Positions 18,916-56,886 of a stretch of 64,000 bases of DNA are shown piece by piece. Location of the stretch: assembly GCA_903921455.1 (NCBI GenBank), contig CAIXPZ010000076.1, forward strand, positions 1 to 64,000, read 5' to 3'. The notes below the pieces were generated by a model. That model worked only from the letters and a program-made list of their open reading frames with translations, was not told where the DNA came from and did not search any database. Within the stretch, counting starts at the first letter, position 1, and each line of letters starts with the position of its first letter. This stretch comes from an uncultured Verrucomicrobia subdivision 3 bacterium (lineage in GTDB: Bacteria; Verrucomicrobiota; Verrucomicrobiae; Limisphaerales; UBA11358). The position numbers and the translations under genes are program-made.

Positions 18916-19281
18916 TCACGGCGTGGGCGGCGTGGGTTTCTTTTTGTTCGTCTTGCCGGTGGCGCGTTCGCTCTTGCGGACGTAGCCCATGGCGTCATAC
19001 AACTCGCCGTCTTCGCCCTCGGCGGGGTCGCCCTTGACGGCGTTCACCACGAGGAGCAGTTGCTTGTTGCTCTCCACGTCGGCGATGTCCCGCTCATCCA
19101 TCGCGGCGGTCATCTGGTTGTCCAGTGTGTCAATCTGGCCGCGCGCGTCGAGGCTGGGCTGCACCTTGGTCGTGAACTGCGCGAGCGTCATGCCCGCGAA
19201 GGTCTTGGCCGGGCGCAGGTCTTTCCAGGCTTTCATCACGGAGGCGAGTCTCTCGCCCGTTAACTTTGGATTGTTTGGCAT
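18916..19281 (-). CDS. Small helical-domain protein downstream of 21-bp repeat tract 1
   Basis: A 121-aa, mostly helical protein with a Lys/Pro-rich tail. The middle (about residues 40-105) follows a pattern shared with the N-terminal domains of the FN3 proteins at 33 kb and 56 kb: two helices with an LLLxV core, then a turn such as GEDGELYDAMGYVRKSER. The FN3 proteins have GDISKIYTSGFDVASR and NGAVMLSTGFSLMR at the same place. A strong Shine-Dalgarno (GGGAGGTG) lies about 8 nt before the ATG. The gene follows tract 1 by 110 bp and precedes the 208-aa gene. Function unknown. Confidence 0.65.
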   Translation of the reverse strand: MPNNPKLTGERLASVMKAWKDLRPAKTFAGMTLAQFTTKVQPSLDARGQIDTLDNQMTAAMDERDIADVESNKQLLLVVNAVKGDPAEGEDGELYDAMGYVRKSERATGKTNKKKPTPPTP

Positions 19282-19391
19282 GTCGTTTCACCTCCCTTCG
19301 TTTGAACTCGGGTTCAAAAATGACAAATCCGAATCCTCGGCTGCCCGCGGCCGGCGAAGGCGGCCGACCACCCGCTGCCACAAGACGACCC

Positions 19392-19580
19392 GGAACGCGC
19401 GGATTCCTCATCGGAACCGGCAGATGCCTCGTGGGAACGGAGACGTTCCTCATGGGAACGCATGGATTCCTGACGGGAACGCGGACGTTCCTGACGGGAA
19501 TTGGCAGGTTCCTCGTCGGAACGCGTCCATTCCTCATCGGAACGCTGGGGTACCAAGTGGGAACGCGTGGATTCCGGCTC
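19392..19580. repeat. 21-bp degenerate tandem repeat tract 1 (9 units)
   Basis: Nine consecutive units of exactly 21 nt, each starting GGAA and most with TTCC at position 13-16, for example ggaacgcggacgttcctgacg. Each unit thus has its own small dyad (GGAA...TTCC). The spacing is exact while the inner bases vary. All three frames on the minus strand stay open through it. One gives heptads of the form x-x-R-S-x-E-E, another N-x-x-V-P-x-R. Reading on the plus strand gives G-T-x-x-F-L-x. No start with a convincing ribosome site decides between them. Confidence 0.92.
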
Positions 19581-19692
19581 CGCTTTGGGGAATTCCGAAG
19601 CCCATCCTGCCGACCCGCAGCCCGCATTATTGCTTGAAAATGCCGTATTTACTGGGGTTTCGGCGAAAACAAAAGAATTCGCCGGACGGCGC

Positions 19693-20058
19693 TCAACGTT
19701 TTGGACGGAAACATTCACCGTGGTCATTTAACCACTTCAGCCGGCCATGGGATATGCAACAATAATTGCACCCCAGGCACTGCTCCGGCCAGCCCGCCAC
19801 GCGCTGTTCCGCCCGCGCGGTCAAGACACTGCCCTTGAGGCCGAACGCGCGCCCGATGCGTTGGGCGGTTTCGACGCGGGCCAGCGACCGGTTCGTTTCG
19901 AGGGCGGCGATGCCCTGACGCCGGAGGCCGGAGATTTTCGCCAATTTGGTTTGCGACCAACCGCGTCGGAGCCGTTCCTCGCGGATGATGCCGCCCAAAG
20001 CGAAACAGACCGGCTCGCGAATACCCCGCGGCAGCGGTTCGAATTTTCCCTTGGCCAT
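19693..20058 (-). CDS. XRE-family DNA-binding regulator with Cys-rich tail
   Basis: A 121-aa protein. Residues about 22-80 form a HTH_3/XRE helix-turn-helix: GGIIREERLRRGWSQTKLAK, then ISGLRRQGIAALE. The C-terminal part has CLGCNYCCISHGRLKWLN followed by one more Cys in GECFRP, a C-x2-C-x2-CC...C pattern that could bind a metal. A good ribosome site (GGAGGGA) precedes the ATG. It is the first gene of a same-strand set: xre, repeat tract 1, 121-aa gene, 208-aa gene. It is a natural candidate to regulate that set, perhaps by binding the repeats; this is inference. Confidence 0.82.
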   Translation of the reverse strand: MAKGKFEPLPRGIREPVCFALGGIIREERLRRGWSQTKLAKISGLRRQGIAALETNRSLARVETAQRIGRAFGLKGSVLTARAEQRVAGWPEQCLGCNYCCISHGRLKWLNDHGECFRPKR

Positions 20059-32937: not shown

Positions 32938-33552
32938 CTAAGTGCTCATGTGGCTGGTCACATCGGTCCAATCGCTGTAACCGGTGCTCCCGCCCAAGGC
33001 GCGCAGGCGGATCCAATACGTCGTCCCCGGCGTGAGGTTTTTCAGGATCATCCGCCGCGTGTTCTGGAACAACTGCCACGGCCGCCAGTTTTCATCACCC
33101 GTGTGGATCCATACCTCATACATGCGCGCGTTTTTGATGGGCTTCACCTTGAGGCCGAGCTGCGTGCTGGCCACGTTGGTAGTCCGCAGCAGAACCGGCT
33201 TGGGCAGTTGCGTGGGGGTGGTGTTCCGCGAGGCCACGTCGAAGCCTGAAGTATAGATTTTGCTGATATCCCCCTTGGCGGTGAACTGCACATACGCCGC
33301 CAGCTCACGCAGGAGCCGGATCACCACTTGGCGCTGCTTCGCCCGGGCGGCAATCAGCGCCCGCCCGCGATCCTTCGCTGCAATGATGGCATCAACATAC
33401 GTCGTGCGCGCACTGTCCAGATCGGCCAAAGGAACCGGCGGTGACGGGAAATGACTGTTCCCCAAGAGGCGGTCATGTATGCGCAAGATGGTCGAAGCCA
33501 GTTGGGATTCTGACTCACGTCGAAATGAAAGTGAAACACGTATGGCTGCCAT
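32938..33552 (-). CDS. Helical-domain plus fibronectin type III protein (copy A, downstream of tract 2)
   Basis: A 204-aa protein. The first half (about residues 1-105) is a helical domain with FPSPPVPLADLDSARTTYVDAI, VIRLLRELAAYVQFTAKGD, and ISKIYTSGFDVASR. The second half is an FN3 domain with VWIHTGDENWRPWQ and LTPGTTYWIRLRALGGSTGYSDW. The gene at 55861-56475 encodes a paralogue of exactly the same length and order. I set the start at ATG 33552, which follows AAAGGA. The gene lies 88 bp downstream of a 420-bp 21-nt-periodic tract. No signal peptide is evident. Function unknown. Confidence 0.75.
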   Translation of the reverse strand: MAAIRVSLSFRRESESQLASTILRIHDRLLGNSHFPSPPVPLADLDSARTTYVDAIIAAKDRGRALIAARAKQRQVVIRLLRELAAYVQFTAKGDISKIYTSGFDVASRNTTPTQLPKPVLLRTTNVASTQLGLKVKPIKNARMYEVWIHTGDENWRPWQLFQNTRRMILKNLTPGTTYWIRLRALGGSTGYSDWTDVTSHMST

Positions 33553-33625: not shown

Positions 33626-33757
33626 TTACGCCTGTCTTTGCTGAGCGACAAGCACGTTTTTCTGAGCGGCAAGACTGGCTTGACAGCAGGCAATTTTGCC
33701 TTGCTGAACGGCAACTTCAGCTTGCTTGGCGGAAATGCTAACTTGCTTGGCGGCCAT
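33626..33757 (-). CDS. Small heptad-repeat peptide encoded by repeat tract 2
   Basis: A 43-aa ORF with a strong ribosome site (GGAGGT, 8 nt before the ATG). It consists of six heptads, beginning AAKQVSI, SAKQAEV, AVQQGKI: Ala at position 1, Gln at 4, an aliphatic residue at 7. The pattern predicts a short coiled-coil helix. The underlying DNA is part of the 21-nt tract, and upstream of its ATG the same frame continues in heptads through two stop codons, so the ORF could also be a by-product of the tract. It lies directly upstream of the FN3 gene in the same orientation. Confidence 0.5.
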   Translation of the reverse strand: MAAKQVSISAKQAEVAVQQGKIACCQASLAAQKNVLVAQQRQA

Positions 33758-34060
33758 ATAATTTTACCTCCAAGCAATGATTCTTTGCCGTTAGGCTAGA
33801 CTGTCTTGCCGCTTAGCTAGTCTGGTTTGCTCCAAAGCAATTGTGTCTTGCCGCTCAGCAAAGTGGCGCACAAGCCTGCTTGGGGAAGGCAGAAGCATCG
33901 TTCCCTGACGGAAAAGCATGCTTAAGTCACGAAAACAAGCCATTCCCAGTCGCCTAGGCATGGTTCCCGAAGCAAAACACGTCATTCTCGATTGCCTGGG
34001 CATGGTGCACGAACGGAAGCAAGTCATTCCCTGACAGAACCACATCAATGCGCATCGTTC
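33641..34060. repeat. 21-bp degenerate tandem repeat tract 2 (20 units)
   Basis: Twenty consecutive 21-nt units with no slip in spacing. The proximal half follows ctgagcggcaa-N6-cttg, for example ctgaacggcaacttcagcttg. The distal half alternates units like aggcatggttcccgaagcaaa and acacgtcattctcgattgcct. Individual units differ a lot, so the period is stronger than the sequence identity. This fills nearly all of the 436-nt gap between the 43-aa ORF start and the VOC gene. Confidence 0.92.
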
Positions 34061-55860: not shown

Positions 55861-56475
55861 TTAAATCGCGCGGCACGTAATCATGTCGCTCCATTCGCTA
55901 AAATCGTGGAGGCCGCCCGCCGCCCGCACGCGGAGGTAATATAACTTGCCGGGCACGAGGTTTTTCACCAGCGCCTTGCGCGTCCGGGTGGAGGTGCCGG
56001 CGGCAAACCAGTTCACCCCGTCCTCGCTGGCCTCAAATTCATAATATCGGGCGTTGCGCACCCCCTTGAACGTCAGCCGGAGCGTCGTGGTCTCCGCGTA
56101 GGCATGGGAAAGGATGCTCGGCACGTCCAGCGCGGTGCGCACATGCGTCGTGCGCATCAGCGAGAAGCCGGTGGAGAGCATCACGGCGCCATTCTGGCCG
56201 CCCTGGTCCTCGGTATGTTTGGCCAGCAGACGCAAGGCGAGCAGCAACTCGTGGCGCGCGGCGCGTTTGGCGAGCGTGGCCAACGGGCCCCCGCTTATTC
56301 GCGCGGCCAAGGCACTGCGATACGTATCATGCAAGGCGGTCAGGGCGGCAGGGCTGACCGGTGGATTCGGAAAAGCGGGATTATTCGTGAAACCGTCGGC
56401 GATACTCAGGGCAAAGGGAGCCAGAGGCGCATCCCGCATGCGCCGAAAACTTAAGCTGATCCGCAATGGTCTCAT
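55861..56475 (-). CDS. Helical-domain plus fibronectin type III protein (copy B, downstream of tract 3)
   Basis: A 204-aa paralogue of the 33-kb FN3 protein, equal in length and domain order. Helical half: NPAFPNPPVSPAALTALHDT, HELLLALRLLAKHTEDQ, then NGAVMLSTGFSLMR. FN3 half: LRLTFKGVRNARYYEFEAS and LVPGKLYYLRVRAAG, FSEWSDM. Both start with the IRVSLSFRR / LRISLSFRR motif. The start at ATG 56475 aligns exactly with copy A. It lies 130 bp downstream of tract 3. No signal peptide is evident. Function unknown. Confidence 0.75.
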   Translation of the reverse strand: MRPLRISLSFRRMRDAPLAPFALSIADGFTNNPAFPNPPVSPAALTALHDTYRSALAARISGGPLATLAKRAARHELLLALRLLAKHTEDQGGQNGAVMLSTGFSLMRTTHVRTALDVPSILSHAYAETTTLRLTFKGVRNARYYEFEASEDGVNWFAAGTSTRTRKALVKNLVPGKLYYLRVRAAGGLHDFSEWSDMITCRAI

Positions 56476-56538: not shown

Positions 56539-56886
56539 TTATCGGCTCAATTCTTTTTCTATCTGCTCACCTTTTGCCCCGCGTTGCGAGTCTAAAACAC
56601 AACTTCGGCTAGTTTTTAGGTTTATTTCTGCAAAAAAGTAATTTTGCTGCAAAGCCTTGGCTTCAAGCTTTGCGGCTTTGTCATTTGGCTGCACAACATT
56701 ATACCATAACCGCAGAACATTGCTTTTATACTCTAAAGCATTGAGGCGATGCTGTTCGTCATCATCATCATGTCGCAAAACTTTAATGTTTTGCTCTGGG
56801 ACAACATGGTTTTGCTTTGGAACTAAGCATTGATGTCCTGCAGCTTTAGCCTGATGCCGCAAAGCTTTACGCTCAATCGAATCCAA
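56539..56886 (-). CDS. Possible heptad-repeat protein encoded by tract 3
   Basis: A 115-aa ORF whose codons follow the 21-nt period throughout, giving heptads such as ERKALRH, QAKAAGH, KSNVLRL, NDKAAKL, EAKALQQ. A short Asp-rich stretch (RHDDDDEQH) interrupts. The start would be a TTG with a weak AGGA site. Composition is AT-rich compared with flanking genes. As with tract 2 it could be a genuine coiled-coil protein or a chance open frame in a periodic DNA tract. Confidence 0.4.
   Translation of the reverse strand: MDSIERKALRHQAKAAGHQCLVPKQNHVVPEQNIKVLRHDDDDEQHRLNALEYKSNVLRLWYNVVQPNDKAAKLEAKALQQNYFFAEINLKTSRSCVLDSQRGAKGEQIEKELSR

Follow-up and report, generated by a model that had tools for sequence, protein, structure and literature searches.

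Helically phased arrays of operators, iterons and plasmid centromeres, ParR-parC among them, are tandem systems in which one motif goes with one known protein. Tandem repeats also lie 5' of a small protein gene in type III toxin-antitoxin systems, where they give repeat RNAs and are longer than 21 bp.

TIGR arrays, as characterised in PMC12045711, are built of 8-12-nt repeats and 9-nt spacers, yield 36-nt RNAs and are accompanied by a Nop-domain protein, and a sub-type is reported there in which the elements are variable yet consistently palindromic. A GTAG or CGTC tag marks REP palindromes, which occur singly, in pairs or in clusters and are described in the Verrucomicrobia for O. terrae (PMC3733652). 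The tandem repeats of Borgs are described as recently formed, with 43-65% inside ORFs (PMC9879509).

The DNA analysed here (the window) is a stretch of 64 kb from an uncultured Verrucomicrobia subdivision 3 bacterium. Its main feature is a phased array of about 20 units of 21 bp on the minus strand (33641..34060), located 5' of a gene with an FN3 domain. No description of such 21-bp arrays was found among the titles and abstracts that searches of open-access literature brought up.

Arrays and genes of the window

The sequence-only reading of this DNA had described a tandem tract of 20 units of 21 nt, and the periodicity is borne out by comparison with 1000 dinucleotide-preserving shuffles. Self-match in the tract is 0.479 at lag 21, 0.503 at lag 42 and 0.417 at lag 63, i.e., a mean of 0.466 compared with 0.249 in the shuffles (sd 0.013, maximum 0.291; z 16.9). 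When one and two periods are averaged, 21 gives 0.49 and the best rival period between 10 and 39 gives 0.28, and the lag-21 maximum across the 64 kb, taken in 400-base windows, starts at 33636 and thus falls on the tract. The 20 units stay in register, so that the claim of a spacing without slip over 420 bp also holds.

The tract consists of two minus-strand blocks with unlike motifs. The gene-proximal block (33637..33867) has 11 units with the half-sites TTGC and GCAA, and the gene-distal block (33889..34056) has 8 units with a different motif. The best dyad axes of the two blocks have equal phase modulo 10.5. Taken alone, the distal block does not reach significance for palindromy, 17 of 200 column permutations having matched its value. 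From the tract it is 88 bp to the start codon of the FN3 gene (32938..33552, minus strand), whose 204-aa product has an N-terminal region without family match followed by an FN3 domain that scores 24.9 bits against Pfam PF00041, marginally below the cut-off of 25. A sigma-70 scan around the tract gave no promoter-like match, though only 0.1 was expected.

Two other tracts in the window had been claimed to have a like placement. Each lies 5' of a minus-strand gene, at 109 and 164 bp from the start codon, and in this respect the claim stands, with the third tract being weak. The second array (19391..19584, minus strand) has the half-sites GGAA and TTCC at spacings of 9 and 12 bp, and its mean self-match (0.647, z 17.4, at 19391-19571) is stronger than that of the tract at 33641-34060. 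It precedes, by the shorter distance, a gene for a 121-aa protein (18916..19281, minus strand) with 329 relatives at E <= 0.001. The third array (~56640..56880, minus strand) has a mean self-match of 0.439 (z 10.0); it is absent from the Tandem Repeats Finder output and its period-21 score of 0.59 is under the 0.75 that we require to call an array, but its position, 5' of a second FN3-type gene (55861..56475, minus strand), fits nonetheless. The genes downstream of the three tracts had also been taken as related. This is true of the two FN3 genes, whereas the 121-aa gene shows 17-19% identity to them in alignment, a level at which kinship is not established.

Searches of Pfam, NCBIfam and PHROG with the 121-aa protein gave nothing above cut-off, and its profile has weak matches only among solved structures (E at least 0.069). 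The FN3-type profile matches solved structures in its FN3 part alone; the remaining parts of these proteins may be helical, as judged from their sequence. A phage origin was set aside, since the 121-aa protein has no match among phage records or viral contigs, and the FN3 protein, with matches in 17 phage records, is matched in residues 140-204 only among the matches listed.

On the 5' side of the second array lies a helix-turn-helix (HTH) gene of the XRE type (19693..20058, minus strand), whose product has a Cys cluster at its C-terminus. An open frame of 137 codons (19314..19727, minus strand) runs across this array and overlaps the end of the HTH gene, and a further sense frame of the array is open as well. 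Translation of the 137-codon frame is possible.

Occurrence and shared geometry

The sequence-only reading would have been refuted by a lack of enriched 21-nt periodicity near homologous genes in other genomes; it withstood this test, as such periodicity is indeed enriched 5' of these genes. Thirteen loci were obtained in a genome scan for the 121-aa family, 11 of them labelled as Verrucomicrobia or groups within and two merely as 'bacterium'. A strong 21-nt tract (0.75 or more) is found upstream in 9 of 18 copies of the family, the window copy included; among the copies without one, some are distant, some have short flanks, and upstream sequence is lacking for L009. Of 11 genomes searched for relatives of the FN3-type gene, 5 gave matches, with 6-10 each in four of these. 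Three of the 30 loci begin at a contig edge and were left out, and period 21 reaches 0.75 upstream in 22 of the 27 used, a strong array being missing in 5. None of the 27 reaches this value upstream for period 20 or 22 (maximum 0.43), nor does period 21 reach it within the gene and beyond its 3' end (maximum 0.58).

The same period is obtained when the scan is blind to it. With all periods from 13 to 40 scored upstream of 45 genes (of 47 regions, two being too short), 21 was best in 36, and the other 9 regions had another best period with weak scores. In 306 kb chosen around FN3-type genes, which largely cover the same loci as the FN3-relative set, there are 21 period-21 peaks, 19 of them 5' of such a gene and on its strand, and no peak for periods 19, 20, 22 or 23. 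Alongside the two remaining peaks (L064:1864 and L067:9893), no intact member of these families was seen. The first belongs to a 21-bp array (L064:1864-2190) whose motifs are CCAAA/CCTTTGG and which is close to a methylase-like gene, and the second to an array (L067:9893-10012) that is followed by an apparent remnant of such a gene, a short frame ending in LRSEGF. In 168 kb of one genome, picked by contig number, there is one array, located between an HTH gene and a gene of a 227-aa family.

Three families are found downstream of arrays, i.e., the 121-aa, FN3-type and 227-aa proteins. None of the proteins scanned has a Pfam match over cut-off, with FN3 coming close, and the distance from array to gene ranges from about 20 to 670 bp. 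The system of array and gene is patchy in distribution, since, in a set of 387 genomes from the phylum that includes the starting genome, the FN3-type profile matches 9 and the 121-aa profile matches 2, the starting genome being one. Of the 17 loci from the FN3-type scan of these genomes, 12 were examined and 11 had sufficient upstream sequence; 5 of the 11 have an array at 0.75 or more, and one more scores 0.67.

Small genes accompany the FN3-type gene on both sides. At six loci (L063, L064, L070, L067, L074 and L075), the interval from array to FN3-type gene holds a frame of about 30-45 aa with TWN or YD motifs, which might be a gene of its own. At four loci, the FN3-type gene is followed by a gene of 72-94 aa (L065:9033-9317, L067:2106-2390, L071:9171-9389 and L074:1730-1948).

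The layout of the arrays was compared in 35 blocks from 32 loci, chosen by their 21-nt lag and a length of at least 120 nt; their period is therefore given by construction, and the unselected evidence for it is the 13-40 period scan. Motifs of the consensus units are unrelated between loci, even inside one genome, and the half-site pairs include TTGC/GCAA, GGAA/TTCC, GGTT/AACC, GACA/TGTC and GTGC/GCAC, among others. Complementarity about the dyad peaks at 0.59 at 5 bp, midway between dyads, compared with 0.36 in column-permuted controls, which stay at 0.36-0.39 over dyad distances 1-10. Information content also peaks midway between dyads, reaching 1.02 bits as against 0.70 at a distance of 10 bp and 0.53 on the dyad base itself, and the columns at the dyads are both the least conserved and the least complementary. 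On average, the layout is a half-site roughly every 10.5 bp in alternating orientation, with variable linkers. The suggestion that spacing is the conserved feature agrees with these results, as 21 bp and the alternating-half-site geometry are common to the loci and the motif is not.

For 17 of the 26 blocks scored, no more than 3 of 200 column permutations equalled the observed palindromy, and the other 9, including the distal block at 33889-34056, fail this control. The register is kept over long distances: across 26 arrays, the match at one to seven units is 0.60, 0.64, 0.58, 0.61, 0.56, 0.57 and 0.54, compared with 0.27-0.29 one base off register, and lags of four units or more played no part in selecting the arrays. 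Where blocks with unlike motifs adjoin, 4 of 6 pairs have dyad phases no more than 1 bp apart, including the blocks of 33641-34060, in a comparison that has these six pairs only and some weak axes.

A relative of the FN3 gene at L042, with a protein 63% identical to that of the window, is preceded by about 42 units in three blocks. These blocks of about 15, 11 and 16 units follow each other from -963 to -21 upstream of one gene and have unlike motifs. Between the proximal block of the window and the TTGC block of L042, the ten central half-site columns agree at 0.43-0.80 per column, and most linker columns are no better than chance. The half-sites TTGC/GCAA have been retained and the linkers lost between the two arrays. 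Intrinsic curvature was rejected as a common feature, as the mean percentile relative to column-permuted arrays (0.58 ± 0.05) is not convincing and curvature is not consistently raised.

Possible roles of the arrays

Our preferred reading, held with evenly divided confidence, is that the arrays are helically phased sites on double-stranded DNA, at which a dimeric protein would bind cooperatively and control the downstream gene. A half-site recurs about once per 10.5-bp helical turn in alternating orientation, which makes 21 bp two turns and one full unit and sets the sites along one face of the helix. The proposed dimer could occupy that face cooperatively and, once bound, would act on the small gene downstream by silencing, activating or insulating it. 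The sequence of the half-site is specific to the locus and shifts over evolution, with the geometry retained. The observations on which this reading builds are the periodicity, the dyad geometry, the 5' position, the half-site retention in two related loci and the lack of an RNA-type bias. The sequence-only reading had weighed coding heptads against a set of sites on one DNA face, and the latter is better supported because there is no strand bias, the half-sites are about 10.5 bp apart and 4 of 6 block pairs are in phase.

Several points stand against sites on double-stranded DNA. Unlike motifs within one genome would need many binders or one that is unusually tolerant, and six blocks with better pairing within units would fit hairpins better. 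In addition, the distance from array to gene varies, some family copies have no strong array, and some peaks have no intact gene.

A binder might be sought in the HTH gene, which, with its C-terminal Cys cluster, lies 5' of the second array of the window and of the arrays at L002, L003 and L100. With 14 of 16 HTH places inspected, three relatives have nine such Cys-tail genes, of which 7 have an array after them, 1 has none and 1 lacks the sequence to judge; the 7 include a gene fragment (L134), and four of their loci overlap earlier sets. Six of the 7 stand directly before the array, and at L132 a 162-aa gene without Pfam match (L132:952-1440) lies in between. At L122, a 21-nt peak (0.83) was seen about 600 bp after a cupin-type HTH gene without Cys tail, at the end of the L122 sequence. 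Among the FN3-type arrays included in the clustering, none has a relative of the linked HTH within 3 kb. The idea that the linked HTH binds its array in a motif-specific manner is weakened by two loci of the same genome, L119 and L129, where the HTHs are one residue apart in the recognition segment and the array units have an AAYTK core in common but are otherwise unlike. A count by eye gives 13 differences over 227 positions between the 227-aa proteins of these loci. PADLOC gave weak matches only for 7 array-adjacent proteins, the best being 1.5e-5 (HTH), and no clear defence family.

More tentatively, we propose that the arrays and the small-protein families could form an undescribed system in which the geometry is inherited and the half-site is the address of a locus. 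This address might be rewritten by concerted change, and each copy in a genome would be addressed separately.

It is unlikely that the array is transcribed and works as an array of RNA hairpins, either as a leader regulator or as a type III-like antitoxin with the downstream protein as partner. Tandem repeats that precede a small gene, with a motif constant within and variable between loci, would suit such a role, and the arrays fold better than their column-permuted versions on average (mean z -2.78), with 7-bp stems at L047. Six blocks out of the 35 (L004, L007, L035, L040, L061 and one L042 block) also pair better within units than across them (p < 0.05). However, a stranded hairpin array is made unlikely by the fact that both strands fold equally and that G-U and A-C are equally common: the sense fold is better in only 18 of 35 blocks (Wilcoxon p 0.50), the antisense mean z is -2.92, and mismatches at stem columns comprise 306 G-U and 292 A-C, i.e., no strand bias. 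The window also has no Rfam match at gathering scores. Covariation within units is weak overall, at z 2.65 with the axis taken from column composition (the z of 9.0 obtained when axis and columns were picked on the same pairs was not used). Pairing within units that barely exceeds pairing between them is what would be expected if half-sites are read separately.

That array and gene make up a mobile or recombining cassette, with the dyads as recombinase or transposase sites, is in our view quite unlikely. The patchy spread (2 of 387 genomes for the 121-aa profile, 9 for the FN3-type), the multiple copies per genome and the two arrays without an intact gene alongside would agree with mobility, but no transposase or recombinase was recognised among the recurrent neighbour clusters listed.

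We consider it improbable that the arrays in general encode a heptad-repeat protein, with 21 nt as seven codons. A sense frame is open in 24 of 35 blocks, with about 17 expected from summed column-permuted probabilities, and in 9 of 9 arrays before 121-aa genes. In the 121-aa class, the synonymous fraction is 0.40 against 0.30, with a tie-break that favours the chosen frame, and the frames of L001 and L004 stop shortly before the start codon with tails alike. On the other hand, an open sense frame is missing from 11 of 35 blocks and an antisense frame is open in 20 of them, there is no excess of synonymous changes in FN3-type arrays (0.22 vs 0.25 in other frames, 23 loci), and coding leaves the palindromic half-sites unexplained. 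For the tract at 33641-34060, coding is ruled out by stop codons in all six frames, none of which is open throughout. For the arrays preceding 121-aa genes the evidence is mixed, and coding is possible.

Old, selectively neutral minisatellites are highly improbable: slippage can create tandem repeats, but the recurrence of a 21-bp period at dozens of loci whose motifs are unrelated, a common dyad geometry, placement 5' of particular families and two relatives that keep half-sites but not linkers all disfavour a simple minisatellite. The contrast with minisatellites drawn in the sequence-only reading calls for caution that cuts both ways, as 7-nt repeats or coding heptads (L012, L008) also give a 21-nt lag. 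At L012:1755-1880 and L012:3366-3450, it is 7-nt repeats that mimic this lag, and scans based on lag only should be read with this in mind.

The arrays provide a repeatable DNA signature tied to functionally uncharacterised gene families in several Verrucomicrobia genomes, and thereby a direct handle on these families. If protein binding is true, this would be a regulatory architecture in which the geometry is conserved and the sequence is not, and the replacement of one motif by another across all units would become a testable question.

Comparison with known systems

CRISPR arrays have near-identical repeats with spacers of similar length, in contrast to the degenerate 21-bp unit found here. 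The present arrays share their place 5' of a small protein gene with the repeats of type III toxin-antitoxin systems, and probably differ from these: they show no strand bias and no toxin-like family match.

As with the tandem repeats of Borgs, the arrays are numerous and some lie in open frames, but their period is 21 bp and their units are degenerate, which sets them apart from the repeats described in PMC9879509. REPs are likewise small palindromic repeats that at times occur in tandem; compared with the account in PMC3733652, the consensus units here have no common tag, as judged by eye, and recur with a 21-bp period 5' of particular genes.

The arrays of TIGR-Tas resemble ours in that the elements are conserved within and variable across loci and a protein gene adjoins the array, and each TIGR unit is described with two constant elements and two variable stretches (PMC12045711), as here; the palindromic elements of the sub-type are a further likeness. 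In contrast to the arrays of that report, ours have a 21-bp unit and no RNA-type strand bias. The Nop domain PF01798 was found in none of the five genomes searched, with the control positive in 4 of 14. TIGR-Tas was rejected on account of the missing Nop domain in these five genomes and the unit of 21 bp.

The arrays also show features of helical phasing, namely a regular whole-turn spacing and inverted half-sites with a conserved motif and free linkers. Phased operator, iteron and centromere arrays resemble them in the spacing of their tandem sites, which is close to a multiple of the helical repeat, and have a dimeric protein that occupies one face cooperatively, as is proposed here. The difference is that in the present arrays the motifs vary between loci of one genome, and that particular gene families follow.
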